NCBI GenBank assembly: GCA_021603905.1
Contig: BQIU01000048.1
Location: 1-32,984 of the forward strand
Direction: 5' to 3'
DNA: 32,984 nucleotides
From: Nitrospirales bacterium
GTDB lineage: Bacteria > Nitrospirota > Nitrospiria > Nitrospirales > UBA8639
A program made the position numbers and the translations under genes. Position 1 is the first letter of the stretch. Every line of letters begins with the position of its first letter. The notes beneath the pieces are model-generated. The model was not told the DNA's origin, did not search any database, and saw nothing but the letters and a program-made list of their open reading frames with translations. Below are positions 1,000 to 32,586 of this stretch, in pieces.

Positions 1000-3282
1000 T
1001 TAATGCGTCATGCATATGGGCTTTTGTGACAATAACCATTTACTCAGGATAAGTTGTAACTGATCAGATTTAATCGGCTTACTTAAATAATCATCCATTC
1101 CTGCCTCGAGACATTTTCCCCGATCACCCTGCATGGCATTCGCGGTCATCGCGATAATCGGTATGCGAAGCGTGCCGCGTCGTTCGTTGCTCGTCGCTCG
1201 TCGCTCGTTGTTCGTCTCACGTTTTTCGTCTTCCGCTTCACGGCGACGAATCTCAGTAGTCGCCTGATAGCCATCCATGTCCGGCATTTGACAATCCATC
1301 AACACCAGGGAATACGGAACTCGACTCACGGCCTCCACCGCTTCATTCCCATTCGCAACGATATCGGCTCGATAGCCGAGACGTTCAAGCATCAGTACGG
1401 CGAGCTGCTGATTCACTCGATGATCATCCGCAACTAAAATCCTCGCTTGCGACCGCACCTTGACCTCATGAAGACGATGTTGCGTGATAAACAATGACGA
1501 TTGACGTTTCTGATCGTCTGGCGACGTGTGGTTCATGACCGCAAGCAGACAATCGTGAAGTTGAGCTTTTCGAACCGGCTTCGTCAGGTACCCGCTAAAT
1601 CCAGCCTTTTGTGCCAACGCGGCATCGCCGCGACGTCCTAAAGAAGTCAGAAGAATGAGACGGATGGCAGCCAGGCGAGGATCCGCCTTCATCACTCTGG
1701 CTAAGGTCAAACCGTCCATGCTGGGCATCTCCATATCAAGAATAGCCAGATCCACACGTTGTCCTTGAGCCGCTCGTTCCTGTAGCAACGACAGCGCTTC
1801 GGCAGGCGTTGAAGCCATCACCGGTTCCATTTCCCAATCCTCAGCATACTGTCCAAGCAGTTGAAGATTGGTGGCATGATCATCGACACAACAGAGACGA
1901 AGCCCGCGCAAATTGCTTGAATCCGGTAATTCCTGCTGAGGCATCGAAGGTTGCTTGGCAAGACGAACCGTAAACCAAAAGATACTTCCTTCATCATCTA
2001 CGCTGTTGACCCCAATCTCTCCATGCATCAATTCGATGAGTTGTCGAGAAATAGCCAGACCGAGACCCGTCCCACCAAATTGACGAGTCGTTGAACTGTC
2101 GGCTTGACTAAACGGCTGGAAGAGTCGGGCTTGAACCTCGACCGGAATACCCATCCCGGTATCCGAGACCTCAACACGAAGTCGCACGTCATTGTCGGTC
2201 TCTTCCAGTAAATGAATGCGAACAACCACTTCGCCTTGTCGGGTGAATTTTATGGCATTGCTAGCGAGATTCAGGATTACCTGTCGCAATCGACCAGGAT
2301 CTCCGCACAAAGCGGTGGGAACATTACCAGACACCAACCCCACGAGTTCGAGATGCTTTTCTCCTGCTTTCTCAGCGAGAAGGTCTAAGGCTTCTTCCAA
2401 TGCCACACGGAGATCGAAATCAATGATTTCAAATTCAAGTTTTCCGGCTTCGATTTTCGAGAAATCAAGAATATCATTGATAATAGTCAAGAGAGCTTCT
2501 CCAGAACTTCTCACCGTCTCAGCAAACTGGCGCTGTTGAGGAGCTAACTCCGTTTCCAAGAGTAGACCGGTCATACCAATCACCCCATTCATCGGCGTCC
2601 GAATTTCATGACTCATGGTCGCGAGAAACTCACTCTTCATTCGTACAGCTACCTCGGCCGCCTCCTTGGCTTCCCGAAGAGAAGTCATGACCTGCTTTCG
2701 TTCCGTGATATCTCGAATAAATCCATAGAATTGATAGGTCTCCTCTTTGTAAGTTGGAATAATCGCAATCTCGACCGGAAAGCGATGCCCATCACGATGA
2801 AGCGCCCAGGATTCAACGCGCTGATTCACCAGACGATCTTCAGTCCTCTGTAAAAATCGACTGACCCCTTGATTATGTGCCTCCCGATGTTCTTCAGGAA
2901 CAATCATCTCCGACAACAGATGACCGAGGACCTCTTGCTCTGCCCATCCGAATGTCTTGGTCGCCTGAGCATTCCATCCGATAATTCGTCCATCCCGGTC
3001 CATGCCGACAATGGCATCAAGCGCCGCATCAATAATCGTTCGCGTTTGTGCCTGTTCGCCTTTTATTCGTCGTTCACTGACGTTTCGAGTCTCTTGAAGT
3101 AGTTCCTGCATTTCCTGATGGGAAATCGACAACGATCGCTCAAGTAGAGCCTGGGCCTGATCAAAGTCTGCATACGTTCGACTGATCTTGGTAAGCAACG
3201 CCTGCCATTCAGTCGGTTGGATAGGGTTCGACTGATCGTTCAGACCCAGCCGCGTTAGCTGTCGCTGAAGAAGTGCGTGCAT
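1000..3282 (-). CDS. PAS hybrid sensor histidine kinase with two receiver domains
   Basis: A 760-residue cytoplasmic hybrid kinase with no clear membrane segment. Order: N-terminal helical region (1-80), PAS domain (about 80-195, ending in the typical DITERK junction), HisKA with H-box [11 protein letters not shown] (phospho-acceptor His225), a HATPase domain (N-box [11 protein letters not shown]-boxes DTGMGIP and GTGLGLAI), receiver 1 (about 465-590, [10 protein letters not shown]) and receiver 2 (about 617-750, [10 protein letters not shown]). Receiver 2 is odd: residues 679-704, between helix 3 and the strand IPIIAMTA, are encoded by heptanucleotide repeats and read as Arg/Glu/Asn/Thr-rich sequence containing NERRATS-type units. 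The frame stays open through this insert. The start is the first ATG after the FIST gene, 7 bp beyond its stop; no strong ribosome binding site is visible. Probable operon FIST - this kinase - MHYT kinase. Confidence 0.93.
1171..1247. repeat. Heptanucleotide array inside a coding sequence
   Basis: Eleven consecutive 7-nt units, nine starting with CGT (CGTGCCG, CGTCGTT, CGTTGCT, CGTCGCT twice, CGTTGTT, CGTCTCA, CGTTTTT, CGTCTTC) followed by CGCTTCA and CGGCGAC. It is the same unit family as the intergenic arrays of this window, but it lies in frame within receiver domain 2 of the hybrid kinase. Three units equal 21 nt, so the encoded peptide has a 7-residue period. Confidence 0.9.
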
Positions 3283-5940: not shown

Positions 5941-6065
5941 GCCGTGAAGCGTGAGAAAAAATTCGTATCTCGTCGCTCGTATCTCGTCGCTCGCCTTCTT
6001 CAATGTTGCCTTTTGCCCTTTGCCTTCTGCCTTCATCTTCTGTTACCCGTCTACCACTTTACGTT
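5941..6065. repeat. Intergenic heptamer arrays (two unit types) between mshM and the MshN-like gene
   Basis: Starts with GTGAAGCGTGAG and CGTATCT/CGTCGCT units (about 5943-5996). These are followed at 6009-6036 by four tandem units of a different heptamer: CCTTTTG, CCCTTTG, CCTTCTG, CCTTCAT. A short ACGTTTCACG arm at about 6060-6070 lies next to the mshM stop codon. Confidence 0.8.
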
Positions 6066-6079
6066 TCACGTCTAATGTT

Positions 6080-11252: not shown

Positions 11253-11411
11253 AAAGAACGTATCTCGTTGTTCGTCGCTCGTATCTCGTTAAAGAGAAAC
11301 TCAAACACGCCTCTCACGCTTCACGAACGACGCTTCACGTTTTTTTCTCACGCTTCACGCTCGACGCTTCACGTTCCTTCTTCCACGCTTCACGAGCGAC
11401 GTTTTTCCCTC
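11253..11411. repeat. Palindromic heptamer block upstream of the MshI-like gene
   Basis: Left arm of CGTNNNN units (about 11259-11290: CGTATCT, CGTTGTT, CGTCGCT, CGTATCT), then an A-rich centre (AAAGAGAAACTC), then a long right arm of ACGCTTC, ACGAACG and ACGCTCG units interrupted by T-rich segments at about 11341, 11381 and 11404. The right end abuts the stop codon of the pseudopilin remnant at 11412. Confidence 0.88.
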
Positions 11412-15810: not shown

Positions 15811-15990
15811 TCCGTGAAGCGTCGTGCGTGAAGCGTGAAGCGCGGGAAAAGGCTCCGAGCGTCCTTTTACGAGATACGAGATACGAAATACGCTTCACGA
15901 GATACGAGCGACGTTAGTTTCCCTCTGCGAGATACGCTTCACGAAATACGAGATACGTTTCCCCCCAGACGAGCGACGCTTCACGTTCTA
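15811..15990. repeat. Heptamer block, right partner of an inverted pair
   Basis: CGTGAAG-type units at the left, a GGGAAAAGG centre, then runs of ACGAGAT, ACGAAAT, ACGCTTC and a second segment ending ACGAGCGACGCTTCACG. 15813-15960 aligns with the reverse complement of 13914-14054 with about five mismatches and a single 7-nt (one unit) length difference. Confidence 0.92.
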
Positions 15991-16525: not shown

Positions 16526-16894
16526 ATGTTATGGGACTGCATAATCCACCCCCCGGGCCGCTCGATTAGGAGAGACTGCCTTGAATATCTCGGATTGACG
16601 GTCACAGATGGGGCCAAAATATTGGGGATTACTCGTCACATGTTGTCGAGGATCCTAAATGGTCAGGCCGGGGTTTCACCGGAAATGGCTGTGAGGCTGG
16701 AAAAAGCTTTTGGCGGAACAGCCCAAAGCTGGTTAGCGCTTCAGCAGCAGTATGACCTTGCACCGGTAGAACGTGGAAAAATCAAAGTTCGCCCGGCTCG
16801 TTTGGCCTTGGCTGAAGCGAGGGATAAGGGAAGGCTCTTCGTCGTTAGTAGAAGAAACAAACGTATCTCTTCGTTCGTTGCTCGTATCTCGTAA
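16526..16894 (+). pseudogene. higA: HigA-family antitoxin, damaged at both ends
   Basis: The core is a clear HigA/XRE helix-turn-helix protein: RRDCLEYLGLTVTDGAKILG, ITRHMLSRILNGQAGVSPEM, AVRLEKAFGGTAQSWLALQ. The expected start is the ATG at 16530 (GGAGA upstream; MGLHNPP), but that frame stops at a TAG after 12 codons. Two bases seem to be lost from the C-run in the HNPPHPG segment. An ATG at 16526 in the other frame (MLWDCIIHPPGR) could rescue translation of the whole DNA-binding domain. At the 3' end the frame continues into a heptamer array, so the last 15 or so residues (RRNKRISSFVARIS) are repeat-derived and not native. It may still be a repressor without its toxin. Confidence 0.75.
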
Positions 16895-17005
16895 AAGAAA
16901 AACAAAGAGGCTCTTTCCACGCCCCTCGCTTCACCCTTCACGCACGACGCTTCACGTCTTTTCCTTCGCTACACGCTTCACGAGTAACGAGCGACGTTTG
17001 TTTCC
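16855..17005. repeat. Palindromic heptamer block between higA and the largest pseudopilin
   Basis: Opens with GAAACAAACGTATCTC, has CGTTCGT, TGCTCGT and CGTATCT units, a centre AAAAGAAAAACAAAGAGG, then ACGCTTC-type units, ending ACGAGCGACGTTTGTTTCCT. The end GAGGAAACAAACG (read on the minus strand) overlaps the TGA stop of the pseudopilin at 17006-17008, and the other end overlaps the higA coding end. Confidence 0.9.
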
Positions 17006-19222
17006 TCAGGGAGCAATCGTTAGGGTGCCCCGGACATCGTCAATCCCGCCGTCCAGCTTGGAACCACCAATTTCTTTCCTTCCTAGCAGAAGGAGTTCGA
17101 TGCTTCGAGTCCCGGCAGGAACAGGGGCATGATAAATGAAAAGGGGATCCCACGTATTGGTGGTGTTTGCCCACACGCTATCGTAGGACACACCAATCGG
17201 CGATCCGCCCGCCACAGCGTTATAGAATGTGATGCGCAATTTGGCTTTGTCATCGCAACAGCCCCCTGGCGTCTCCCCGTGGCCAAAGCCGGAAAAACTG
17301 GCCGTGGCCTTGCCTGCATCAATTTCTGCTATCGACGCACTCAGATCCAAACGCTGATACACTCCCAATTCATGAAAAAGTATTCCCGTTACGGCACCAG
17401 TAGATTTGGCATCAGCAAAGTAGGTTCCACTGTGAGGCACTGACATCGCGCTCGTTGAGGTCGTGGCGCCCCAATCGTTGTAGCCGCCATTTCCCGTCAG
17501 ATCGCCCGTCTTGATCCAGCCCGTCAGGTCTCCCGTTTCAAACCCGGGATTCACAATCGACTGGGCGACAAAAATATACTTGGGGACCAATGTGATGCCG
17601 TCGATATCATCAGGACTCGAAGTGAGCCCAAGATCACTCCCATCAAAGAGCAGCGTAGCAGTGGCTGCCGTATTGACCCCTGTTGTTGTGACGTCCAGTA
17701 TTATAATGTCTTGCTTGGTGACTGGAATTCCATTGTCCCCAAATGCATTGTCATTTTCATTCGTTGTCACCAGTATTTGGCCTGATTGAAGTCTTGCGTC
17801 TCCTATGCCGACGTCGCTGCCAATGAGATGAACACCGGACAGATAGTTACTGCTCTCGATCTGAATATCTGCCCCCTCGACAAGCACGGAATAACTTCCA
17901 CTTGTCGTCGTTCCAGCCGATGTCAGTGTCAGATGTAAAATGTCTCGTTCATTCTGCATGTTGAGCAAGAATGTTCCTTGTGAAAGGTTCGCACCTCCGA
18001 CTGTCGTCATTTCCTCAACTAAGCTGACGCCTTTAACGTCGCCACTGGGCAGGCTCAAGTCAGATCCGTCGATCAGAACAATAAATGTCCCAGCCGTATA
18101 GTCCCCAGGGTTGTCTGGGCGGAAGATCGTGACATCGGCGTCGTCTACGGTCAGCGAGTTGGTACTGGTCAGAGTCGCCGCGTCGGTCAAAGAGAAAAGA
18201 ATATCACCGATGTAAACATCAATCGGTGTGGTGGTGCCAATCGTGAGGCTTCGTGTGACATAATGCACCGCATCTAATGAGGCACTTCCGGTAAAGTTAT
18301 TCAGATCGAACTGAGCGCTAAACGTTCCAGAAGTGGTTCCGGTTGGGCCTGACTCGTATGTGAGATTCGGCTCATCGAAAGACCCTGCCTGCGAGTTATT
18401 TAAGACACCATCACCGTCAGTTGTGAGCCATAACACGGCTGATGGCAGACATGGTTCCGCGGGCACGATGCGCCAACGAAATCCCACGCTGCAAAGCGGA
18501 TCAAACTGGTACACCACATGGCCTGTGAGGGCAAACTGCACCTCAGGCGTTCCATAGGTATTGTCCTCATCCAGTCCCACCACCGTGCCCGCGACATGAT
18601 ATCGGCTGTAATCCGCCAGTAGTCCCCCGCCAGAATTCGTCGTTGTCCCATCGATCTGGTAACTCCCCCCGTCATCTATCGCCCTAAACGTCACCTGATG
18701 AAACTGACTCGCGAGATTTCCGCGATAGATGTGTAATCCAGGCGTCGCGCTTTCGTCCGTGGTCCACCAGGTTTCAAACTCTGCCGCGTTGGTGATAGTC
18801 GGCGTGGCATCTGCTTCAAGGTTTGAAACCAACAAAAAACGAACATCGGTGAGAGCACTCTCGGCCAATCCATTGCCGTTGGCAAACGTACCTGTGTTGG
18901 GGTGCGCAAAATAATAGCGAGGGAAGAGACGAGTATTTTGAGTCAGCTTCGTTGAAGCAAAGGGCGCATAGCCAGGATTGTGGGCCGCCAAGGTGGGAGG
19001 CCACGTCCTATTTTTCCGAAGATAGGTTTCGGTGCCTTGCCCTATGGCTTGGAGGTTCTGCCTCTCTATCTCGACATTTTGGATATCATGAGAAGTTATA
19101 CCGTTTGGCAGCAAAATGGTGATTGTCACGGTGAGCGCTACCAACAAACCCATGACGGCAAGAATGGCAAATCCGGCTTCATCTGACACAGTGCGTGTCT
19201 TATGGATTTTCTTCTGCATCAT
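17006..19222 (-). CDS. Very large pseudopilin with atypical cleavage site and C-terminal domains
   Basis: 738 residues from the ATG at 19222 (or 19219); the frame extends to 19291 through repeat-derived codons that I exclude. The N-terminus has a prepilin-like peptidase site DEAG|FAILAVMGLLVALTV with Ala at mature position 5 instead of Glu. The 'long pilin' module follows (LRKNRTWPPTL, FPRYYFAHPNTGTFANGNG, FETWWTTDESATPGLHIYRG, SRYHVAGTVVGLDE), then several imperfect beta repeats (VTIFRPDNPGDYTAGTF, VKGVSLVEEMTTVGG, ILDVTTTGVNTAATATLLF, DDIDGITLVP). A final domain of about 160 residues starts VNPGFETGDLTGW, a motif common at the beginning of secreted jelly-roll domains. Loss of Glu5 is a feature of tip-complex pseudopilin GspK. 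I infer a tip or adhesin subunit. Confidence 0.88.
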   Translation of the reverse strand: MMQKKIHKTRTVSDEAGFAILAVMGLLVALTVTITILLPNGITSHDIQNVEIERQNLQAIGQGTETYLRKNRTWPPTLAAHNPGYAPFASTKLTQNTRLFPRYYFAHPNTGTFANGNGLAESALTDVRFLLVSNLEADATPTITNAAEFETWWTTDESATPGLHIYRGNLASQFHQVTFRAIDDGGSYQIDGTTTNSGGGLLADYSRYHVAGTVVGLDEDNTYGTPEVQFALTGHVVYQFDPLCSVGFRWRIVPAEPCLPSAVLWLTTDGDGVLNNSQAGSFDEPNLTYESGPTGTTSGTFSAQFDLNNFTGSASLDAVHYVTRSLTIGTTTPIDVYIGDILFSLTDAATLTSTNSLTVDDADVTIFRPDNPGDYTAGTFIVLIDGSDLSLPSGDVKGVSLVEEMTTVGGANLSQGTFLLNMQNERDILHLTLTSAGTTTSGSYSVLVEGADIQIESSNYLSGVHLIGSDVGIGDARLQSGQILVTTNENDNAFGDNGIPVTKQDIIILDVTTTGVNTAATATLLFDGSDLGLTSSPDDIDGITLVPKYIFVAQSIVNPGFETGDLTGWIKTGDLTGNGGYNDWGATTSTSAMSVPHSGTYFADAKSTGAVTGILFHELGVYQRLDLSASIAEIDAGKATASFSGFGHGETPGGCCDDKAKLRITFYNAVAGGSPIGVSYDSVWANTTNTWDPLFIYHAPVPAGTRSIELLLLGRKEIGGSKLDGGIDDVRGTLTIAP

Positions 19223-19462: not shown

Positions 19463-20440
19463 TTACATCGTGCATGCAGTGCCAAGCACCTGCCACTGGT
19501 TACCACTGGTACAATTGGGATCAAAGAGATAGCCGGCATCCGAGGTCAGGGTCCACTGGACCTCAGGCGTGTTATAGTTATTAGCCTCGTCCAGCCCCGC
19601 AGGGGTACCCACAAGATGATACCGGGTGTACATTGCCAGAGTTCCACCACCAGAATTGGTCGTGTTCCCATCGACCTGGTAGCTGCCCCCCGTACCCATC
19701 GCACTCATAGCAACTAAGTGAAAGAGGTGTCCCAGGGTCCCTCTATAGATTTTGAGGTCCGGGGTACTGGTTTCGTCGGTATTCCACCAAGCATCAAACT
19801 GCGCAACGGTGTTGATGGTCGGATTCGCATCCGCCGTCAGGTTGGAGATCAGGAGAAATCGCACATCATCCAGGTTACTGGCGGCCAGGCCGGCGCCATT
19901 CGTGAATCCACTGGTATTGGGATGGATTGCGTAATACCGCGGGAAACCTCGTTCATTCTGGGAAATTTGAGCAGAGCTAAAGGGAACGTACGCTGGTGTC
20001 AGGGCAGCAAGGTTGGCCGGCCACACCCGGTTTTCCCGTAGAGACACTTCGACCCCTTGCGCGATGGCTTGGAGATTGCGCATTTCGGCTTCCCTCATGT
20101 CCCTATTGAATCCTTGAATAAATTTGGGGGCAATGAGGCCTCCGAGAATAGCAAGGATAGCTAGGACTCCTAGCATTTCGATCAGAGTAAAACCAGCGCT
20201 CGTGAAGTGTGAAGTGTGAAGCGTGGAGCGTGGTAGAACGAACGTGAAAGGTGAAGCGTGAAGCGTCTTGCGTGAAGCGTATCTCGTGGGGAAAATTATG
20301 TTTCTGGTCTTCTGTTTTTGATCTTGCGCTTCACACTTCACGCAAGACGCTTCACATTTTTTTTCTTTCGCTTCACGTTTCACGAACGACGCTTCACGCT
20401 GAAAGTTTTTTAATGAGATTTCTGAGCATTCGGGTTTCAT
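19463..20440 (-). CDS. Pseudopilin of the long family, leader overwritten by repeats
   Basis: The pilin part (about 240 residues) starts at SAG|FTLIEMLGVLAILAILG and has Glu5, SLRENRVWPANL, GFPRYYAIHPNTSGFTNGAG, FDAWWNTDETSTPDLKIYRG, TRYHLVGTPAGLDE and ends after NPNCTSGNQWQVLGTACTM-like sequence, so it lacks the beta-repeat extension of its two relatives. The open frame upstream has no ATG close to the cleavage site: the roughly 70 residues before it come from heptamer arrays (CEASCVKCEAQ, FTFVLPRSTLHTSHFTS), and the first ATG (20440) lies inside the four-helix-bundle gene in another frame. GTG codons in the array are the only nearer options. The true start is therefore unknown and the gene may be poorly expressed or dead, although the body is intact. 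Confidence 0.7.
   Translation of the reverse strand: MKPECSEISLKNFQREASFVKREAKEKKCEASCVKCEAQDQKQKTRNIIFPTRYASRKTLHASPFTFVLPRSTLHTSHFTSAGFTLIEMLGVLAILAILGGLIAPKFIQGFNRDMREAEMRNLQAIAQGVEVSLRENRVWPANLAALTPAYVPFSSAQISQNERGFPRYYAIHPNTSGFTNGAGLAASNLDDVRFLLISNLTADANPTINTVAQFDAWWNTDETSTPDLKIYRGTLGHLFHLVAMSAMGTGGSYQVDGNTTNSGGGTLAMYTRYHLVGTPAGLDEANNYNTPEVQWTLTSDAGYLFDPNCTSGNQWQVLGTACTM
20200..20393. repeat. Heptamer block fused to the pseudopilin 5' end
   Basis: On the plus strand: GTGAAGT/GTGTGAA/GCGTGGA units from about 20200, then CGTGAAA, CGTGAAG, CGTCTTG, CGTATCT, a centre near 20295-20325 (GAAAATTATG to TGTTTTTGATC), then CACTTCACGCAAGACGCTTC and a final ACGAACGACGCTTCACG that contains the stop codon of the four-helix-bundle gene. 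Some units are GTGTGAA rather than CGTGAAG. Confidence 0.88.
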
Positions 20441-20759: not shown

Positions 20760-20764
20760 ATCGT

Positions 20765-24180: not shown

Positions 24181-24849
24181 TCATCCATGATTCAGATAAA
24201 TCATCATTTGATCAGTTGCGGCGTCATATTTTGCCCGCCCTCGAACGACACGCTCTGCTGTCGTAGTGCCAATGCCTGGATCGAGAATGGCATCGACTTT
24301 GTCAAAATCCGCATCGCTGATCCCCGTAAAGTAGACATACACCACATTAGAATTACTCGGGATATCGCTACCGCCGTCATTATTCAGATCCCAACCAATA
24401 TTGCTGGCGTCTGCCGCAGCAGCGTAGGCCACAGGCGTACTAGACGTCGGCATAAAGACCTGCGTTCCCAAACCAGGCGGAACATTGGTGATAAACTTTG
24501 CCAAATATGGACCTCGAAACCTTACCCAACTATTCGCACCGGTATTCAAGGCATCGTTCACATCCAGCGTCAGGCGTGCCCCAAGCGATGTAGCCTCAGT
24601 GCTATTCCCCGTGGCTTCTGCTGTTGGCGTTCCACCAGCATCTAGCGGTAGCAGCGTACTCAGATCGGAGTAATAATCAACAACTGCTGTTTCATACGTT
24701 CTGACTGCAGCCACCAACGCATTCGCTCTTGATTCAGCCATGATTTCGAACACTTTTGGCAACAACAGTGCCACCAAAATCGCAATGACAGCTAAGACAC
24801 CGATCATTTCGATCAAGGTAAATCCTTGTTCCTTGTTCATATTCTTCAT
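24181..24849 (-). CDS. Small pseudopilin D, possible major subunit
   Basis: 222 residues with a compact 9-residue leader (MKNMNKEQG|FTLIEMIGVLAVIAILV), Glu5 and the small-pseudopilin globular fold shared with copies A-C: PLDAGGTPT, NTGANSWVRFRGPYL, VPPGLGTQVFMP, the acidic loop DLNNDGGSD and the ending TTTAERVVRGRAKYDAATDQMMIYL. It is the only member with both a clean short leader and an excellent ribosome binding site (GGAGAGGG shortly upstream) and no adjacent upstream repeat, so it is a good candidate for the main structural subunit. It lies one gene upstream of mshE. Similarity to A-C shows that those arose by duplication within this locus. Confidence 0.93.
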   Translation of the reverse strand: MKNMNKEQGFTLIEMIGVLAVIAILVALLLPKVFEIMAESRANALVAAVRTYETAVVDYYSDLSTLLPLDAGGTPTAEATGNSTEATSLGARLTLDVNDALNTGANSWVRFRGPYLAKFITNVPPGLGTQVFMPTSSTPVAYAAAADASNIGWDLNNDGGSDIPSNSNVVYVYFTGISDADFDKVDAILDPGIGTTTAERVVRGRAKYDAATDQMMIYLNHG

Positions 24850-25006
24850 AATTCCCTCTCCTCTTGCGACTTCATTGATGACCCTATGATTGGTTTGTTG
24901 ACATATAAAGGCATTTTATTCTCGTTTCCTGTTTTCATTGTCATTCTTCGGCAGTCTTTTCTCTAGCCTTGAGGGCTTTCTGACTATAAAAGTGGGGAAA
25001 TATCAC

Positions 25007-25105
25007 TCGTAAAAGAAAAAAACGTGAAACGTGAAGCGTATCTCGAGAAAAGAGTCTGTTGGCCTTTCTTTGACGATTCTCGTTTCACGCTTTACGAAAT
25101 ACGCA
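25007..25105. repeat. Palindromic heptamer block between pseudopilins D and E
   Basis: TCGTAAAAGAAAAAAACGTG, then CGTGAAA, CGTGAAG, CGTATCT, a centre GAGAAAAGAGTC to CCTTTCTTTGACG, and a short right arm ACGCTTT, ACGAAAT, ACGCACC ending 2 bp from the TAG stop of pseudopilin E. The remaining 24850-25006 shows no gene. Confidence 0.82.
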
Positions 25106-25106
25106 C

Positions 25107-25793
25107 CTATTGGTGAGCCAAATAGAGTCGAAGACTCATTTCAACCGGATCGTATTTCGCCCGCCCTCTGACCTGCCTCTCTTCCATTGTTCTTCCAATG
25201 TCTGATTCCACAACCTTATCAATACGGAGAAATTGCTCCGGAGTAATTCCTGTGACACGAAGCACGACGATATGAGCCTGGGTCGGAACATCGCTTCTTG
25301 CATTATCGCCTTTTAAATCCCAGGCATCATTACTCCTGGTGACCACGGCGCCTAACGGCAGTGCTTTATGGGTCTGCAGATACATGGCTCCACCAAGTTC
25401 TGGGGGATGTTGCGTATCGAATTTCTCCAAGTACGGTCCCTGAAACTTCGTCCACAAATTAGAACCCCCAGCACGCGGGTCACCCGCAACAAGTGTGAGC
25501 TGAGCAGGAAGCGAGTTGGGGTTTGCGCTATTTCCCGTCTGTTCGAGATGAGGCAACCCCTGAGAATCCAAGGGCAACAGAGTCCCCACATCAGCATAAT
25601 ATCGACTGATCGCTTGCTGATAAATTTTGACAGATGAAACGAGCGATTCGGCTTTGGAGTCTGCGATCAAACCATAGACGTGAGGGAGCGTCATGGCCGC
25701 TAATACGGCGCCAATGGAGACCACTCCAATTGTTTCTAGTAGGCTTAAGCCACCCTGAGCATGAAGAAGAGCAAATTTTCGTAAATTCAACAT
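25107..25793 (-). CDS. Small pseudopilin E, divergent
   Basis: 228 residues from the ATG at 25793 (MLNLRKFALLHAQGGLSLLE); upstream in-frame ATGs at 25847 and 25889 are possible, the former preceded by AGG. The cleavage site is AQG|GLSLLETIGVVSIGAVL: Gly replaces Phe at mature position 1, while Glu is retained a few residues on. The body belongs to the same family (YYADVGTLLPLDSQGLPH, NLWTKFQGPYLEKF, HPPELGGAMYL, ERQVRGRAKYDPVEMSLRLYL), but the acidic loop is degenerate (DLKGDNARSD), so calcium binding is doubtful. It follows the TPR lipoprotein gene. It may be a minor pseudopilin. Confidence 0.85.
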   Translation of the reverse strand: MLNLRKFALLHAQGGLSLLETIGVVSIGAVLAAMTLPHVYGLIADSKAESLVSSVKIYQQAISRYYADVGTLLPLDSQGLPHLEQTGNSANPNSLPAQLTLVAGDPRAGGSNLWTKFQGPYLEKFDTQHPPELGGAMYLQTHKALPLGAVVTRSNDAWDLKGDNARSDVPTQAHIVVLRVTGITPEQFLRIDKVVESDIGRTMEERQVRGRAKYDPVEMSLRLYLAHQ

Positions 25794-25940
25794 CACCTGA
25801 CTTTCAGATTTTTCCTTTGTTGTGATGTCTTTCGGTTGCCTGTTCATGAATCTATACCTGTTGATCTCGCAAGGCAGGTAAGCGTTCATCTGTCAACCTG
25901 CCAAACTGAAACAGAAAGATTTCCGAGTTTTCCTACAAAG

Positions 25941-26606
25941 TTATGAACGGGAGTCGAGTCCTTGTAGCGCAATCTTGGCAAAAGGGTCGCCCTGTTGCGA
26001 GGCACGCCGAAAGAGGTCCTTGGCTTTCTCAGTATCCTGATGTTCTGTCTGGGCGTCGGCATAAATAGAGCCAAGATGAACGAGTGCGGCGGTAGAATTT
26101 GGCTCTACTTGAAGGGCTTGTTCATACGCGTTGATTGCCTCCGATACTTGACCTTGCATTCTGAGCGCACTGCCAAGCCCCACATAGGCTTCGGCCGCAT
26201 CTTGATTCTGACGAAGGGCTTGTCGATAAGCGGCGGCGGCGGCTTCATAGTTTCCACGAACAAAAAATGACCGCCCTAGTTCTTGATGCCATTTTTCACC
26301 ATGGATGATGGGGTGGCCTGGTTCCGGAGAAAGACGGACTGGCAGAGGTGAGGGCATGGACACAGGTAGGTTCTGTGTTTCCATGCGAATTTCGCGTACT
26401 GATTCTTTTACGTTGAACAATGAGGAATCGTGCAAACCACGAAGAATGGCGGCTTTGGTAAACTGACCTTGTTGTGCCAGCGTTGCCGGATTTTTAACCG
26501 ATTGAAGACTGCCGCCGTTTTCATAATCGGTTGCACACCCCTGACATATAGACAGTCCGACTACGATGATGGCACATCGGCTAAGCCAATTCGTTGTTCT
26601 CTTCAC
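25941..26606 (-). CDS. TPR lipoprotein at the head of the pilus locus
   Basis: 221 residues from a GTG at 26606, supported by AGAGGAG 6 nt upstream. The N-terminus is a lipoprotein signal peptide (KRTTNWLSRCAIIVVGLSICQGC, lipid on the last Cys). The C-terminal half has three TPR repeats: ELGRSFFVRGNYEAAAAAYR, AYVGLGSALRMQGQVSEAIN and ALVHLGSIYADAQTEHQDTE. Layout and position resemble PilF/PilW pilotins, which carry secretins to the outer membrane, but they have more TPRs, so a pilotin role is an inference. It is the first gene of the long minus-strand series and is preceded by about 780 bp without genes, where the promoter must lie. Confidence 0.85.
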   Translation of the reverse strand: MKRTTNWLSRCAIIVVGLSICQGCATDYENGGSLQSVKNPATLAQQGQFTKAAILRGLHDSSLFNVKESVREIRMETQNLPVSMPSPLPVRLSPEPGHPIIHGEKWHQELGRSFFVRGNYEAAAAAYRQALRQNQDAAEAYVGLGSALRMQGQVSEAINAYEQALQVEPNSTAALVHLGSIYADAQTEHQDTEKAKDLFRRASQQGDPFAKIALQGLDSRS

Positions 26607-27312
26607 GACAGACTCCTCTGTTCATACATGGATCCCGATGGGAGACGTCACTCACCAATACTCCCATGATATTTAATCGTCACAACTTGGGATTCTTGCT
26701 ACTTGTATCGGGACATTGACGTACGTCCTTGATCTTGAAATGCCGCACTCATCACCTATAGCCGCGTCAGTTATACCGGAACGATACAGCGCCAATTTGT
26801 ACGATGTTGATATCCAATACGTGAGAGAAAACGTCAATTATTGTCAGTACATCCAAGCGGGTATAACCTTCCAATGTTTGAGGCGTATAGCCGAATCAAT
26901 TAACTTTCAATGTGTGATGTGAGTAATTTCGCTGGGTTACTTGGATATCTCTGATTGGTGGTATTAAAAGGATAAGGTCACCATGATCGATTGCCCACCC
27001 GTGACGCTTAGTCTTGCGAACGATCGTATCCACTGGGGCTATCTATGACCACCATATTGCATGACCATAGGAATTCTCAGTGAAGGTTGGACAGATATGA
27101 CGAGTGGGGCGTTGAACGTTCATGGCCTCAGTACACCACTGGAAATTCTTTAAATTCGCAATAAACAACGACGACTGAGTGAAATATCCCTCAATGAATA
27201 ACGTCAGAGAAACCATGAAGAAAATGTATTGAAATGAGTAGGAACGAAATCAAAAGCGTCACGAATAACAGGATATTCAGAGCATTCTGATAGAGGAAAC
27301 GGAGTAGGAACA
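26607..27312. other. Noncoding stretch between the pilus locus and the glutaredoxin gene
   Basis: I see no convincing gene on either strand: short open frames lack family features and ribosome binding sites. The left part must hold the minus-strand promoter of the pilus locus, but I find no clear -35/-10 pair. The right part leads into a plus-strand terminator, so an untranslated plus-strand RNA is possible. Confidence 0.6.
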
Positions 27313-27350
27313 CGAAGCCCGCCAGGAGAGGCGGGCTTCGTATTTTTTTC
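27313..27350 (+). terminator. Strong intrinsic terminator without an upstream gene
   Basis: A perfect 11-bp GC-rich stem (CGAAGCCCGCC pairing with GGCGGGCTTCG), a 6-nt loop AGGAGA, then TATTTTTTTC. The T-run is on the plus strand only. No plus-strand gene exists upstream within this window, and genes on both sides are on the minus strand. Confidence 0.9.
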
Positions 27351-27388
27351 TAGCAGGGGGTGACGTGTCGCTGAGAAAGAAGAACGTG

Positions 27389-27715
27389 TTATTCGGTTTT
27401 GAACGCCTCCTTCAGCAACGGTTCAATTTCACCTTTTTGTTCCATTGGCCCCAACACATCAGTATCACCATAAAACGTTCCATTGATGAACACCTTGGGT
27501 AAAGTTGGCCAATTCGTCATCTGATTCAAAAATTCTCGTTTTTCCGGGTTTGTGAGGACATTAATCAGCTCATAGGGATGCCCGAACTTATTAAAAAACT
27601 CCATCGTCTCTACGGTAAATCCACATTGAGGGGCAGATTTCGTCCCCTTCCCGTAAATCAAGATCTTATGCTCTTTAATTTCGCGTTGAACTTCTTCTTC
27701 GATTGGATTGGACAT
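27389..27715 (-). CDS. grxD: Monothiol glutaredoxin, Grx4 family
   Basis: 108 residues, full length for the family. It has the active-site loop KGTKSAPQCGFT (Cys31), where the usual CGFS is CGFT, and the TLPKVFINGTFYGDTDVL region carrying the cis-Pro and glutathione-binding residues. Grx4 proteins hold a bridging [2Fe-2S] cluster with glutathione and form hetero-complexes with BolA proteins. AAGGAG lies about 10 nt before the ATG, and the gene follows the BolA gene after 14 bp, so the two partners are co-transcribed. Its function is iron-sulfur cluster trafficking in the cytoplasm. Confidence 0.95.
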   Translation of the reverse strand: MSNPIEEEVQREIKEHKILIYGKGTKSAPQCGFTVETMEFFNKFGHPYELINVLTNPEKREFLNQMTNWPTLPKVFINGTFYGDTDVLGPMEQKGEIEPLLKEAFKTE

Positions 27716-27729
27716 GGGATTTGTTCTCC

Positions 27730-27969
27730 TTATGCTTCATCGTGAGTTTTTGCCTGTAGCTCCACTGCATGAATACGGCCATCTTTCATTGGAACATCTA
27801 ACGCCTGGTAAATCATTCGGTGCCGATCTAATAAATTTTTCCCTTTGAACATATCTGAGACCACATCGACGTTGAAGTGATCCATGGTTCCCGTTCGATC
27901 AACAATCGAAACTTTTGCATCAGCCATCGATTGCTGAATAAACATTGTAAGATCTTCTTTGCTAATCAT
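27730..27969 (-). CDS. BolA/IbaG family protein
   Basis: 79 residues from the ATG at 27969, chosen because GGGGAG lies 5 nt upstream; the frame is open further to 28056 without family similarity. The fold signature is clear: VSIVDRTGTMDHFNVDVVSD, FKGKNLLDRHRMIYQAL and the closing IHAVELQAKT, with the conserved His in both RHR and IHA. BolA proteins partner with monothiol glutaredoxins to ligate or transfer [2Fe-2S] clusters. Its direct neighbour is the Grx4 gene, a classic conserved pair. Confidence 0.93.
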   Translation of the reverse strand: MISKEDLTMFIQQSMADAKVSIVDRTGTMDHFNVDVVSDMFKGKNLLDRHRMIYQALDVPMKDGRIHAVELQAKTHDEA

Positions 27970-28066
27970 GTATTCTCCCCAGTTCGCGAGTAATTGACTT
28001 CTTTCACCTAATATAGCCAACCGACTATTCGTTGCGCAATTCCAGATATCGCGCATCCACTACCCC

Positions 28067-28798
28067 TTAGCCTTCATCCACATACCGATATAAAGCAGAT
28101 CTGATGAAGATCCCCAGCCGCTCCAGAACATTCATAGGAATCTCATGGCCTCCACGAAATTCATGCCATTCCACAGTAAGCCCTTCTGCTTTCAGCATAT
28201 CACGGAGCTGTTGCGCCACGACCGGAGAAAGGATTGGATCATCAGTCCCATGGCTTTGAAACACCGGCATTCCCTTTCGCTTGCCAGCCAGAGATGCCCA
28301 TTCATCGCTCGCGATCAAAGAGCCAGAGAGTAAGACCAGGCCGGCATATGACTCATTGGCCCGTAACGCGGCATCACAGGCCAACATCGCTCCTTGCGAA
28401 AATCCGCCAATTATCAGTTCATCGGGTGTAACGTGAAATTCTTCCTTGACGGTCTGCAACACCTCAACAATTTTTTCGCGAGCCTCTGACAAACCATTCG
28501 GGACTTCTTTCGTTAATTGAGCCCAGTTCCCGCTTGCACGCTCTTGCGCAAGACGCTCCATGTCTAACATCCACCACGCTCGGGAATCCCCGAACCCGAA
28601 GTTCAAGGACAATGGTGCAGCGGGAAAGACAAATCGGGTTTCGTCAGGAACATCAAGGACCCGCCACAGAGGGACCAAATCATCTCCAGGAGCCCCAAAA
28701 CCGTGAAGCAGCATGACTACAGGTCCTGAGCCACCGCCTTGACGGTCAGACCCGCCGGTTATACCTATTTCAAGTCCGGCCCATTTTTCAGTTCGCAT
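28067..28798 (-). CDS. Alpha/beta-hydrolase, carboxylesterase/phospholipase family
   Basis: 243 residues. Oxyanion-side motif LLHGFGAPGDDLV, nucleophile elbow GFSQG (Ser134), acid in GTDDPIL (about Asp187) and His218 in RGGHEIP make a complete triad of the carboxylesterase/lysophospholipase (YpfH/EstB-like) family. No signal peptide, so it is cytosolic. No strong ribosome binding site precedes the ATG. The BolA gene starts about 97 bp downstream in the same direction. The substrate is unknown; short-chain esters are typical. Confidence 0.92.
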   Translation of the reverse strand: MRTEKWAGLEIGITGGSDRQGGGSGPVVMLLHGFGAPGDDLVPLWRVLDVPDETRFVFPAAPLSLNFGFGDSRAWWMLDMERLAQERASGNWAQLTKEVPNGLSEAREKIVEVLQTVKEEFHVTPDELIIGGFSQGAMLACDAALRANESYAGLVLLSGSLIASDEWASLAGKRKGMPVFQSHGTDDPILSPVVAQQLRDMLKAEGLTVEWHEFRGGHEIPMNVLERLGIFIRSALYRYVDEG

Positions 28799-28879
28799 AG
28801 ATTTTTCTGTTGTTAGGGGTTACACTCCACGACCCACATTCTTTTTTTCATTATCGCGACTCTATTTCAGGATCATCTC

Positions 28880-29030
28880 TCATGGAGGAAACAAACGTTG
28901 CTCGTCGCTCGTATCTCGTCGTTCGTATTTCGTAAAAGAAAAGATTCTTTTTTTGCGAGCGACGCTTCACGCCTGCACGCTACAGCACGCAGGCCCGAGC
29001 AACGAGAGACGTTGTTTCCTCTACGAAGAA
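28880..29030. repeat. Complete palindromic heptamer element with matching ends
   Basis: The best example of the element: left end GGAGGAAACAAACG, units CGTTGCT, CGTCGCT, CGTATCT, CGTCGTT, CGTATTT, centre CGTAAAAGAAAAGATTC to TTTTTTTGCG, right arm ACGCTTC, an inserted CCTGCACGC-TACA-GCACGCAGG hairpin, units ACGAGAG, and right end ACGTTGTTTCCTC. It sits between two genes on the minus strand (the carboxylesterase upstream, the zinc-ribbon gene downstream of it in the plus coordinate). Confidence 0.92.
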
Positions 29031-29046
29031 CGCCGGTAAACGATTT

Positions 29047-29226
29047 TCAATGTCCCATTTTCGGAGATCCGGCATTGGCCCCTTGCGTGATCATGGGAAT
29101 TCGGAGGACTTGCTTGCAGTGTGTGCAGATGACCTTCATCGTATTCGGATCGGAATACACGATGTCTTGTTCTGGTATCCAAAACAATAAACTACATTTA
29201 GGACATTTTCTGACGAGCATCGGCAT
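29047..29226 (-). CDS. Small zinc-ribbon protein
   Basis: 59 residues from the ATG at 29226, with GGAG 8 nt upstream. Two CxxC knuckles (CPKC and CTHC, 24 residues apart) flank the hydrophobic LLFWIPEQDIVYSD, as in a zinc ribbon of the MJ0042/DUF-type small proteins. No further domain. The function is unknown; such proteins may bind nucleic acid or act as zinc-structured adaptors. It is divergent from the GNAT gene, with about 75 bp between the two starts, so the promoters must overlap or abut. Confidence 0.75.
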   Translation of the reverse strand: MPMLVRKCPKCSLLFWIPEQDIVYSDPNTMKVICTHCKQVLRIPMITQGANAGSPKMGH

Positions 29227-29300
29227 ACAACAATCTCCATCAATCACTAGTTTTTAGGTAGCTATTTAGTGTAATACAGAGCAGCCTCTAATCGCCAGCT

Positions 29301-29705
29301 ATGATTACATTTTCCGACTCGAAAGATATCACCCCCCAGAAGCTGCTCCCCCTCTTTGAGCAAGCCCAGTGGTCTAGCGGACGAACGCTGGAAGATACGT
29401 CCTCCATGCTGGCTCATAGCGATGTAATTATATCAGCCTGGGAAAGCTCGCGCCTGATCGGATTTGGGCGGGTCCTGACTGATTATGTGTTTCGTGCCTC
29501 AATTTGGGACGTGATTATCGACCAACACCATCAAGGCAAAGATATTGGCACCACACTCATGCGCCAGATTCTTGATCATCCTTCACTCCGCAACGTTGAG
29601 TTATTTTGGCTCTGCACTAGGCATAAACAGGCTTTTTACAAGACTTTAGGCTTTTCTGATCAAGAACAAACCGGCATGGTCTGGAATCGCAGTGAACATC
29701 GTTAA
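29301..29705 (+). CDS. GNAT-family N-acetyltransferase
   Basis: 134 residues. The GNAT core is visible: the strand SRLIGFGRVLTDYVFRASI, then motif A IWDVIIDQHHQGKDIGTTLM with the Q-x-x-G-x-G/A-like acetyl-CoA pyrophosphate loop (HQGKDIG), and the C-terminal HKQAFYKTLGFSDQ typical of motif B. The overall size and the DDT-like opening match small amino-sugar/protein acetyltransferases of the YjgM/ElaA type; the substrate cannot be told. The ATG at 29301 has no strong Shine-Dalgarno sequence. Confidence 0.88.
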   Translation: MITFSDSKDITPQKLLPLFEQAQWSSGRTLEDTSSMLAHSDVIISAWESSRLIGFGRVLTDYVFRASIWDVIIDQHHQGKDIGTTLMRQILDHPSLRNVELFWLCTRHKQAFYKTLGFSDQEQTGMVWNRSEHR

Positions 29706-29757
29706 CTGAACATTGTCTCCAATCCTATGAATGCACACCAGTTCAAGTCTGACAACA

Positions 29758-29905
29758 CAGAATCGTACCTCGTCGCTCGTCGCTCGTCATTCGCCAAGGA
29801 AAAAAACGTATCTCGTCGCTCGTCGTTCGTAACTCGTATAAAGAGTCTTTCTCGTCTTTTTCGAGCAACGAGCGACGAGCAACGAACGACGCGTTATTCC
29901 CCACG
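29758..29905. repeat. Double heptamer block upstream of anmK
   Basis: Two successive left arms (CGTACCT, CGTCGCT, CGTCGCT, CGTCATT; then AAAAAACGTATCTC, CGTCGCT, CGTCGTT, CGTAACT), a centre AAAGAGTCTTTCTCGTC, and a right arm ACGAGCG, ACGAGCA, ACGAACG, ACGCGTT. The right side ends about 45 bp before the anmK start, so the anmK promoter lies in or before the repeat. Confidence 0.9.
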
Positions 29906-29950
29906 TTCTTCATGGCATCGTTTTTTCACCCAAACCCATGGTGTTCAACG

Positions 29951-31114
29951 ATGATCGTTGCCGGTTTAATGTCTGGAACCTCAGCAGATGGCGTTGATGT
30001 TGCCCTGGCGAATATTCGAGGAAGCCAACATCGTCTCAATATGCACTTGAAATATTTTGAGACCATTTCGTATTCCCCTTCCCTTCGCAAGCGAGTGCTG
30101 GCAGCCGCAGAAAGCGGGCATGTGGCCGAAATCTGCCACTTAAACGTACTGATCGGCGAAGTATTTGCGACAGCCACGCTTCGAGCCATTGAGCGAGCTA
30201 AGCTCAAACCTCAACAAGTCAAACTGATCGGCTCTCATGGTCAAACGCTTCATCACCTTCCCAAGCCTCAGCGGGAACCAGGCATTGGCCCCGTTCGATC
30301 AACCCTGCAAATCGGTGATCCATCCGTCATTGCCGAGCGAACCGGCATCACGACCATTGCCGACTTTCGCTCGCGAGACCTGGCAGCCGGGGGAGAAGGT
30401 GCCCCGCTTGCCCCCTATGCTCATCACCTCTTCTTTCAGCATCGATCCCGGTCCCGGCTCATCGTGAACCTTGGCGGAATCGCCAATGTGACGGTCCTGG
30501 CTGCAGGAGCTCCTCTAGAATCCATGCAGGCCTTTGATACAGGTCCATGCAACATGTTGCTTGACGCCGTGACCGCTCGCTTGTCGAACGGCAAACAGAC
30601 AATAGACCGCGGAGGACGACTCGCACAACGCGGTCACGTCGACCCGACGATTCTCCGATTTTTACTGTCGCATCCCTTTTTGCGCACTCCTCCGCCCAAA
30701 TCCACCGGAAGGGAGGAATTTGGTCAGTCCTATGTCAAGAAATTGTTAGAACGGACTCGCAAACGTCGTCTTTCACTGTCCGACGTTCTAGCAACCTGTT
30801 GCCGCTTCCTCGCACATTCCATCCACAATGCACAAACGTGGATCGCAGACGACATTCATGAAGTCGTGCTCGGTGGCGGCGGAATCTTCAACGCCGCACT
30901 TATGAGCGCATTACAAGAAACATTTGCGCCAGTCCCGGTTCGCACCATGGATGAGTGCGGATCGTACAGCAAAGCCTTTGAATCCATCGCTTTCGCCGTT
31001 CTTGCTTACCAAAGTTTTCATGGCGTCTGCGCAAATGTTCCAGCCGTCACTGGAGCTCGACATCCAGTTGTGTTGGGAACCATCACCCCGGGACATCTGA
31101 GAATCAAGACGTGA
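29951..31114 (+). CDS. anmK: Anhydro-N-acetylmuramic acid kinase
   Basis: 387 residues, the usual length. AnmK phosphorylates and opens 1,6-anhydroMurNAc to MurNAc-6-phosphate during recycling of peptidoglycan fragments. It has the phosphate-1 motif GLMSGTSADGVD, HGQTLHH, the GDPSVIAERTGITTIADFR segment, NLGGIANVT, FDTGPCNMLLD (usually GPGN, here Cys replaces Gly), VVLGGGGIFN, and the C-terminal DECGSYSKAFESIAFAVLA. I start at the ATG at 29951 by family alignment; an in-frame ATG at 29912 lies next to the repeat and is less likely. The stop overlaps the start of the next gene (GTGA), so the two are coupled. Confidence 0.95.
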   Translation: MIVAGLMSGTSADGVDVALANIRGSQHRLNMHLKYFETISYSPSLRKRVLAAAESGHVAEICHLNVLIGEVFATATLRAIERAKLKPQQVKLIGSHGQTLHHLPKPQREPGIGPVRSTLQIGDPSVIAERTGITTIADFRSRDLAAGGEGAPLAPYAHHLFFQHRSRSRLIVNLGGIANVTVLAAGAPLESMQAFDTGPCNMLLDAVTARLSNGKQTIDRGGRLAQRGHVDPTILRFLLSHPFLRTPPPKSTGREEFGQSYVKKLLERTRKRRLSLSDVLATCCRFLAHSIHNAQTWIADDIHEVVLGGGGIFNAALMSALQETFAPVPVRTMDECGSYSKAFESIAFAVLAYQSFHGVCANVPAVTGARHPVVLGTITPGHLRIKT

Positions 31115-31710: not shown

Positions 31711-31712
31711 GG

Positions 31713-31830
31713 AAAACGTATCTCGTCGCTCGTATGTCGTATCTCGTGTAAGAAAATCATTCTGATCTTTCTTTTCCAAACGACGAACGATGAGATATGA
31801 TTCACGCTTGCGCGCAGGCACGAGCAACGA
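31713..31830. repeat. Heptamer block between the DUF2726-like gene and a convergent gene
   Basis: GAGGAAAACG end overlapping the TGA stop at 31710, units CGTATCT, CGTCGCT, CGTATGT, CGTATCT, centre AAGAAAATCATTC to TTTCTTTTCC, right arm ACGACGA, ACGATGA, GATATGATTCACG and the site CTTGCGCGCAGGCACGAGC. It lies between the convergent stops of two genes, where a bidirectional terminator would be useful. Confidence 0.9.
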
Positions 31831-31832
31831 TC

Positions 31833-32468
31833 CTACGGACGGATTATGGGAAGCATCGTGCGAAATGTTTCTTCGCCAATCTCAGCAACGAGCCCGGATT
31901 GAATACGCGGGTCTTTCATAGGAATGAAGCGGGCAACTTTCATATATGACCGATTGGCTAATACTGCAGCAGCTTGAGACTTTCGGTCACGCGTGAGGTC
32001 CATCGTATATCCCGCACCATGGTTCCATTCCCACAGTGAAGAACTCAAACAGAGACAGAGGTGGTGATCGCAAATATCCGCATAGTGATTGATGAGATTT
32101 TCCTTGTAGCGTCGAATGTTGGGGCCTTCCAAAATGAAAGCAAAAACGACATGGTGCCCCCACCAAAAGAGCGTGCGAAAAGCAAATTTTTCTTCTCGCG
32201 TATAGTGTCGAGGGAAGTCGAGATATTGATAGGGAAAATCTTCCAGATGTTCACCTTTCACAAACTGGACGGCTTCGGAGTTAAAACGCTGAGGGACGAT
32301 CAGGTCCGTTCCAACGAGAGCTGATTGGATACGCGTATGAAGGGCTTCCAAGGACTGACGAACGGTGATCGTAATGCGTGCTTTTGTGCGAAAGAATGTT
32401 GTATCCGCAAAGCACTCGACTTCTTCTGGGGAAAATGAAAACGATTGGGTCATAGGAGTGTCATTCAT
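31833..32468 (-). CDS. Unrecognised cytoplasmic protein
   Basis: 211 residues from the ATG at 32468; the frame extends to 32558 through repeat-derived codons (ARNERRF, SRHERRD), which I exclude. I do not recognise the family. No signal peptide or membrane segment. It is rich in aromatic and His residues: RTLFWWGHHVVFAFILEGPN, HYADICDHHLCLCLSSSLWEW and NHGAGYTMDL suggest a buried core. The early EEVECFADTTFFRTKARITI and TVRQSLEALHTRI look like an alpha/beta start. Convergent with the DUF2726-like gene and divergent from xthA, with repeats at both ends. Confidence 0.75.
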   Translation of the reverse strand: MNDTPMTQSFSFSPEEVECFADTTFFRTKARITITVRQSLEALHTRIQSALVGTDLIVPQRFNSEAVQFVKGEHLEDFPYQYLDFPRHYTREEKFAFRTLFWWGHHVVFAFILEGPNIRRYKENLINHYADICDHHLCLCLSSSLWEWNHGAGYTMDLTRDRKSQAAAVLANRSYMKVARFIPMKDPRIQSGLVAEIGEETFRTMLPIIRP

Positions 32469-32469: not shown

Positions 32470-32586
32470 ACAACTGTATCTCGTCGCTCGTGCCTGCTCG
32501 CAAGCGTGAATCGTCGTTCATTTCTCGCAAAAGAAAAATCAGAAAAATTTCCTTGCAAGCGACGAGCAACGAACGACGAGATACGA
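32470..32586. repeat. Heptamer block between the unrecognised gene and xthA
   Basis: CGTCGCT units, then the site GTGCCTGCTCGCAAGCGTG (inverse of the 31807 site), TTCGTTTC-like segment, centre GCAAAAGAAAAATC to TTTTTC, right arm GCGACGAGCAACGAACGACG and ACGAGAT. It ends about 10 bp before the xthA start and begins at the start codon of the neighbouring gene, so both divergent promoters lie in or next to the repeat. Confidence 0.88.

Follow-up and report, generated by a model that had tools for sequence, protein, structure and literature searches.

What are the blocks of repeated seven-base units that lie between the genes of this locus, and how did they come to be there? The window, that is, the whole 32,984-nt stretch of DNA analysed here, is contig C48 of a 4.74 Mb assembly in 203 contigs (G000), and its GspE-like protein has Nitrospirales bacterium OFTM51 as the closest named contig, at 90% on the amino acid level. 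It has to be asked whether these blocks form one family, and whether they behave as terminators, as mobile elements, as protein-binding arrays, or as the product of a process that makes DNA in steps of seven.

Plan of the elements in the window

Scanning of the window reveals a common plan, in which an arm of CGTNNNN heptamers is followed by a centre and then by an inverted arm of ACGNNNN heptamers. Strict in-phase chains of at least four units occur 22 times (13 CGT, 9 ACG) and are absent from 100 first-order resamples, so that the phased arms around a centre proposed in the first-pass annotation are confirmed. The A-rich and then T-rich centre described there is present in the best cases. 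A unit-model scan finds 15 elements above 25 bits (Table 1), the top score in 264 kb of third-order resamples being 23.0 bits; it recovers 12 of the 13 places named earlier, but leaves the one near 20765 below threshold, and adds three elements (1171-1242, 5943-6070 and 13076-13169). The arms also keep their order: counting neighbouring chains of at least three units no more than 60 nt apart, CGT precedes ACG in 36 cases in G000 and its relatives G003 and G004 together, and the reverse order is found in none. These cases are divided into 19 in 41 G000 sources, nine in the syntenic G003 stretch and eight in non-overlapping G004 loci, the G004 set that includes two overlaps having given seven such pairs. 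The heptamer family and its common plan are real, and the earlier view of one family with a dyad and a phased CGT core, which is more than a plain STRR, stands.

The same is not true of the conserved ends that had been ascribed to the family. Exact GAGGAAACAAACG has three occurrences in the window, and 23 matches with up to three mismatches compare with 11.1 expected. The 116 ends of 61 G000 elements are weakly alike, showing a mild enrichment of A beside the first CGT (0.53 at position -3 and 0.48 at -2) and a run of four A beside CGT at 13 ends. This set of 61 was drawn from the listed pattern matches, so that G000 has more elements than these, and a pure CGTGAAG array (L007) was left out of it. 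The ends seen at 28880 are thus a property of an element subset, not of the family. In that type element the outer ends are GAGGAAACAAACG / CGTTGTTTCCTC, and the ACG arm holds an inner GCCTGCACGC..GCACGCAGGC hairpin.

Table 1. Heptamer elements and arrays of the window, with the state of the same site in relatives
Positions	Strand	Feature	Score and remarks	Same site in relatives
1171..1242	.	Array within hybrid histidine kinase gene 1000-3282	About amino acids 680-704 by arithmetic; Pfam domains	72 nt in both G000 and G004, units altered in G004
5943..6070	.	Element between genes 4526-5932 and 6080-6901	Unit-model scan; right part of TTGCCTT-type heptamers by eye	117/128 identical in G004
11259..11401	.	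Element, ACG arm broken by T-rich linkers	111.5 bits	
12350..12432	.	Element amid pilin-like genes	66.1 bits	
13076..13169	.	CGT arm alone, amid pilin-like genes	40.9 bits	
13906..14077	.	Element, two CGT sub-arms, exact GAGGAAACAAACG end	Scan range 13829-14089; inverted copy of 15813 element	
15813..15985	.	Element with long ACG arm	152.1 bits; inverted copy of 13906-14058	
16840..17008	.	Element with GAAGAAACAAACG and CGTTTGTTTCCTC on opposite sides	94.2 bits	
19232..19454	.	Element with GC-rich nested hairpin of about 73 nt	Unit-model scan	G004 copy 118 nt shorter
20201..20398	.	Element at 3' end of ORF 20394-20798 (minus strand)	119.8 bits	
20797..20855	.	Sub-threshold ACG arm	Three-unit ACG chain 20797-20817; named earlier as near 20765	
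25023..25103	.	Element amid pilin-like genes	56.6 bits	Different units in G003 and G004
28880..29030	.	Type element	81.7 bits; 6-unit CGT arm 28896-28937, A/T-rich centre	By alignment, a different heptamer element in G003; none in G001 and G002
29764..29897	.	Element between plus-strand ORFs 29301-29705 and 29912-31114	103.6 bits	Filled with different units in G003 and G004; by eye, decayed in G002
31711..31820	.	Element starting 6 nt past stop codon	Scan range 31717-31890; ends in partial nested hairpin	Missing in G004 except right-end remnant
32475..32585	.	Element between divergent genes	67.6 bits	18 nt between two start codons in G004

GC-rich hairpins of 65 or about 73 nt make up a second family. 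They have the form CGT-GCCTGCGCGC...GCGCGCAAG-CGTG and, in the copies read, sit between two CGT cores within arrays, at 19362-19440, 31810-31820 and 32492-32501 in the window and at L026, L029, L141, L151, L164, C8:41127-41191 and C29:34588-34652 elsewhere in the material (the last two in G000); the copy at L164 is missing in G004. Heptamer arrays are also found within predicted genes, namely at 1171-1242 in the hybrid histidine kinase and at L003, L004, L163 and L131 (1207-1278), and these last four genes look, from their sequences, like paralogues of the window kinase. The tandem pilin-like genes at 11651-15773 and 24181-25889 are for the most part followed by a heptamer element, and an N-terminal methylation motif is present in both pilin-like proteins tested.

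Words, copies and inheritance

The four variable bases of the unit, its word, take 21 forms in 105 window units, the top ten accounting for 90%, and the common words recur at other G000 loci and in G003. Their order in the arrays is non-random. ATCT rarely follows ATCT (6 against 17.2 expected), and blocks of three units are shared across G000 loci more often than in within-array shuffles (35 against 17.4, reached in 0 of 300), even when two obvious copies are left out. On that same basis blocks of four units are not significantly shared (3 against 1.0, 21 of 300), and a stronger figure for them (7 against 1.7, 2 of 300) was dropped because it was partly due to the two copies. Three- and four-unit blocks fall short of significance in G003 alone (38 and 86 of 300) and in the comparison of G003 with G000 (33 and 98 of 300), and in both cases unit pairs are the only blocks that exceed the shuffles. 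The two arms of an element match each other no better than arms swapped between elements, 91.6% of the swaps being as good or better in G000 and 65.9% in G003. This argues against copying of one arm from the other through a hairpin template, which was rejected as a candidate.

Direct copying is seen in two pairs of elements. The stretches 13906-14058 and 15813-15960 are inverted copies with 92% identity over 148 aligned positions, the latter carrying one additional whole CGTATCT unit, and by eye their flanks do not match. At L149, two neighbouring elements within a local duplication agree at 94% of 143 positions and carry unequal numbers of CGTCGCT units. Whole elements can therefore be copied, and units come and go singly or a few together.

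Comparison with close relatives shows that many copies are inherited vertically and decay like their flanks. The pieces of G004 are about 80-96% identical to the window, and same-copy identities between G000 and G004 at other loci are 80/88, 82/86, 82/88 and 75/82. Among 13 well-aligned pairs from these two genomes, 27 of 327 core positions (0.083), 50 of 436 variable N4 positions (0.115) and 0.098 of the flanks differ, so that core and N4 show no clear difference in conservation (p 0.18); this test leaves out the elements at 12350 and 13076 of the window, as well as any pair whose flanks are short or less than 0.8 identical. A contrast over all 24 pairs (35/471 against 102/628, p 8e-6) was discarded, since the alignment of rearranged arrays favours cores. 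Unit changes between G000 and G004 are seen at 1171, 25023 and 29764. The window sites 31717 and 32475 have no element in G004 and look like deletions, since a remnant is left there or relatives are filled. Across the syntenic region, elements number 18 in 38 kb of G003 and five in 34 kb of G002, while 34 kb of G001 has none. For ten of the 15 window elements there is a G003 element whose flanks match on both sides, and for five on one side only; among the ten, the flanks of 12350 and 13076 are paralogous pilin genes. No new array was seen in the making in these genome comparisons.

Distribution across genomes

In the whole of G000 the 5-unit pattern gives 48 matches, 17 of them on the window contig, against none for its backwards control, and the 4-unit pattern gives 124 against 2. 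The 5-unit pattern is matched in 11 of 36 genomes of the same family (f1), G000 included, and in no genome of the f1 genus g4. Among 295 genomes drawn from the phylum, at least one match is present in 69 of the 78 that belong to family f3 and in none of the 15 from other orders of the class. Outside the class, matches occur in some genomes and are often equalled by the backwards control (49 against 59 in G089), a clear excess being found in a few of them (G196, 65 against 5; G275, 62 against 14; G241, 16 against 0). A genome of family f2 (G045) has other words after CGT (TATT, TAAT, TAAA, TATA) in the same two-arm order, with CGT before ACG eight times and the reverse never; for G053 the corresponding figures are three and zero. 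The unit-model scan finds no element in 77 loci of other groups (1.33 Mb, two of them labelled Nitrospirae).

A viral origin was also considered. A scan of viral sequences gives at least 120 stretches, and in 80 of the listed loci 41 stretches exceed 40 bits, many of these stretches being plain tandem heptamers of one word. Two IMG/VR contigs, 3300045008_000213 (L268) and 3300045611_000284 (L308), have several CGT-heptamer arrays with words like ATCT, GAAT and CGCT. Heptad-phased intergenic arrays with other words are seen in other phyla at L037, L072, L076, L078, L091, L094 and L107, some of them palindromic by eye.

The trpE|trpG junction and the step of seven

Among 20 loci fetched for their arrays, two, one in G045 (L222, family f2) and one in G053 (L235, family f3), turned out to be the same gap between trpE and trpG, each filled with its own words, and this prompted a test of the junction. 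TrpG was sought in 59 relatives and 51 copies of the gap from 50 genomes were read; in the other nine genomes the TrpG match was weak or partial, or the locus was not retrieved. The gaps measure 0-47 nt in 27 copies, 67-150 nt in 23 and 476 nt in one, which is excluded from the lag statistics. When the 23 long gaps are pooled, self-match is 0.406 at lag 7, 0.365 at lag 14 and 0.314 at lag 21, against 0.231-0.266 at other lags from 2 to 24, and the highest pooled value at lag 7 in 200 shuffles is 0.276. Lags 7 and 14 remain at 0.395 and 0.356 without the two prompting gaps (others at most 0.272). In the 17 gaps with fewer than two in-phase CGT/ACG pairs they stand at 0.368 and 0.336, the highest of the other lags being lag 21 at 0.29, and the rest at most 0.28. 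Individually, lag 7 ranks first in 13 of the 23 gaps, first or second in 17, and fifth or lower in six, near the bottom in G009 and G029. A period test is passed by 12 of the 23 gaps at k = 7 and by none at any other k from 4 to 13.

By eye, at least four alphabets occupy this junction, with ATGGCNN/GCCATNN words in G040, G051, G055 and probably G054, GTAAGGA/GTGAAGA in G006, and GGGAGAG/GGCTGGG/GTGAGGG in G031 and G023. Short and filled gaps co-occur within the genera g1, g12, g4, g9 and g16, which requires several gains (or losses). One assembly, G050, has two trpE|trpG copies (L401 and L402) with gaps of 12 and 114 nt, and could be two strains binned together. The trpG|trpD gap, which was not chosen for its arrays, exceeds 50 nt in three of the 26 gaps scored, trpD not having been found in the four remaining loci of 30; lag 7 ranks first in two of these, in G015 (151 nt, CGAANNN words by eye) and, more weakly, in G053 (53 nt).

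The step is found beyond the trp genes. In the syntenic regions of G000 to G003, 17 of 76 gaps pass the period test at k = 7 and none at other k (4-13). In random 20-kb pieces of 12 Nitrospirales genomes, with genes set by greedy choice, six of 146 gaps pass at k = 7, two at k = 6 and one at k = 12. In eight pieces taken within the phylum but outside the order, none of 56 gaps passes at k = 7, and a single gap passes at each of k = 4, 6, 8 and 13. The 77 loci of other groups give eight of 528 at k = 7, along with two at k = 4, five at 6, three at 8, eight at 9, two at 10, one at 11, 17 at 12 and none at 5 or 13, the multiples of three being read as missed coding sequence. For the random pieces, the pooled signal at lag 7 is at best weak in the f1 genera g4, g9 and g10 (z 1.8) and of moderate size in family f3 (z 3.8); other orders (z -0.5) and other classes (z -1.1) show none. 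The seven-step rule is strong where arrays are common, and elsewhere only suggestive.

Competing explanations

The position of the elements relative to genes bears on the proposal that selection keeps them behind genes for a function at RNA 3' ends, as terminators or as barriers against 3'->5' exonucleases. By simple gene calls plus four hand-added genes, the 61 G000 elements divide into 30 between tandem genes, 16 convergent, six divergent, four inside genes and five unclear. An upstream stop codon lies within 30 nt in 39 of the 46 tandem or convergent cases; those between tandem genes lie a median of 10 nt behind the stop and 53 nt before the following start, the stop being nearer in 23 of 30 (p 0.005). 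This placing fits the terminator suggested in the first-pass annotation, as do the folding of 46 two-arm elements (mean z -2.7, median -2.3; -69.3 kcal/mol and z -7.8 for 28878-29028) and the many sites common to G000 and G003. However, the divergent and intragenic copies, the non-significant stop bias of G003 (nearer in 7 of 12 tandem cases), the lack of element-specific pairing in the arm swaps and the lack of clear core conservation speak against it. Selection of G-U wobble pairs in RNA was rejected, as no asymmetry was found (p 0.73 and 0.53). Rfam gives no match above gathering score in the window, and a simple terminator scan yields no more than its shuffles (18 against 18.5 at 11000-30000; 18 against 17.6 at L134 of G001) and is therefore neutral. 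Of the 23 long trp gaps, only eight have a fold more stable than that of shuffles (z < -2), and these include gaps of the CGT, ATGGC and GTRARGA types. Filled gaps also separate trpE from trpG. In 22 of 51 copies these two genes have 0-21 nt between them, and a strong terminator at that place would thus be harmful; judged from sequence, obligate termination within this pair seems unlikely, and selected 3'-end function in general is regarded as improbable. The constant 3-nt core and the regular spacing could instead be explained by a protein that binds DNA or RNA at 7-nt intervals, be it a nucleoid protein or a global regulator, and in Geobacter metallireducens classes of repeats, one of five made of tandem heptanucleotides, have been proposed as IHF/HU sites (PMC2700814). 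Yet each alphabet at the one orthologous site would need its own reader, and the core is not significantly more conserved than N4 in the 13 pairs, which leaves this a very unlikely explanation.

It had also been suggested that the elements are non-autonomous mobile DNA; in a REP- or MITE-like form of this reading, they would be moved by a transposase in trans and land at stop codons. The inverted copies at 13906 and 15813, whose likeness stops near the element ends, speak for it, as do the short and filled trpE|trpG gaps within single genera, with both forms in G050. The g4 inserts of G023, G031 and G027 are bounded at either end by TAAT, which resembles a target duplication made at the stop codon of trpE, but these inserts belong to other alphabets, and no duplication is seen at inserts of the CGT type. 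The ends are not conserved and do not form the terminal inverted repeats of MITEs, and the window sites that are empty in G004 look like deletions. Y1 transposase and reverse transcriptase were rejected as required partners, since neither Y1_Tnp nor RVT_1 is matched in the near-complete array carriers G015, G055 and G057 (completeness 98-100%); G000 has nine Y1_Tnp matches, so a Y1 transposase may play a role there. Mobility by a transposase in trans is accordingly judged unlikely for the family, although whole elements may transpose.

A host process as the favoured explanation

The explanation favoured here, with confidence that is no better than even, is that heptad-phased palindromes come from units being copied and exchanged by the replication and recombination of the host, at a site where they are tolerated, and not from a dedicated enzyme or a selected terminator. 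It is favoured because of the missing Y1_Tnp and RVT_1 in the three carriers and the closeness of trpE and trpG. The model proposes that a small palindromic insert would arise, or land, at a gene junction, the place of least harm. The array would then grow, shrink and trade units through slippage, template switching and conversion, the repeated core keeping arrays in register during the exchange. Such trading may spread one word set through a genome, and word sets would come to differ between lineages; without renewal the arrays would decay by point mutation, as seems to be so in G001 and G002. Transcribed into RNA, they would fold into an extended, imperfect hairpin with a possible effect on mRNA ends, as a by-product and not as the reason for their existence. 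Against this explanation, the flank-free inverted copy fits transposition equally, and we know of no process that yields a step of exactly seven. The lack of an array in the making, the poor match between arms, the four-unit blocks that are not significantly shared, the small share of trp gaps with a good fold, the six gaps that rank lag 7 low and the faint lag-7 signal in random pieces count against it as well. A wider claim is put forward only tentatively, as one that may well fail: that a process shared across many bacteria lays palindromic DNA at gene junctions in seven-base steps with any unit sequence, its products including the CGT words, the ATGGC, GTRARGA, GGGAGAG and CGAA words, and the heptamers of Xanthomonas, Geobacter and cyanobacteria.

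Relation to known repeats

Tandem heptamers have so far been noted in single taxa, with no cause given. At trpE|trpG, lineages with unrelated words have mostly the same 7-nt step at one orthologous junction, which turns the question of why heptamers exist into a testable one about a single mechanism, with a natural set of filled and short sites. Such a pattern is a hint of some as yet undescribed mode of repeat formation. It also calls for caution with gene prediction in these genomes, since arrays translated as if they were coding account for some of the short ORFs and gene ends. In the literature, searched chiefly outside subscription journals, no report was found of heptamer palindromes in Nitrospira or of different word sets at one junction.

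The STRR of cyanobacteria are intergenic tandem heptamers, direct repeats of one heptamer. The window arrays likewise have 7-nt units standing head to tail, without being built from one nearly perfect repeated unit. REP, BIME and REPIN sequences, associated with the RAYT transposase, are extragenic palindromes often found behind genes, as are the Nitrospirales elements; REPs are 20-40 bp long with a tagged end and, unlike those elements, have to our knowledge no 7-nt phase.

The TAACTGA repeats of Beggiatoaceae are also intergenic tandem heptamers, but they are direct repeats of one heptamer near start codons, with one inverted set against 169 direct ones (MacGregor 2015, PMC4679880). The repeats of Geobacter metallireducens resemble ours in being multicopy, with tandem heptanucleotides drawn as strand-switching loops, and differ in their consensus (MTYCTGA, GGACCGG) and in their proposed role as IHF/HU sites or regulatory RNA; the available passages on them hold no comparison of orthologous junctions (PMC2700814). 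Inverted heptamer arrays had been thought undescribed, a claim that falls with the inverted GGGAATC pairs of Xanthomonas, of which 70 and 75 cases are given (PMC4692102). These and the GGGGA(T/C)T arrays of Nostoc were reported at a time when detailed literature on heptameric repeats was said to be unavailable (Rehm 2015, PMC4692102). They share with the Nitrospirales elements the 7-nt tandem units, the frequent arrangement in two close inverted arrays and the tie to gene ends (PMC4692102), the CGT and ACG arms being two such inverted, convergent arrays. In Xanthomonas and Nostoc one G-rich heptamer has been studied as a G-quadruplex former (PMC4692102), whereas in Nitrospirales CGT alone is constant, the other four bases vary within a word set, several alphabets occupy one orthologous junction, and the common words with their CGT core have no GGG run and do not make a G-rich unit capable of a quadruplex. 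The closest known system is that of the inverted GGGAATC arrays of Xanthomonas.
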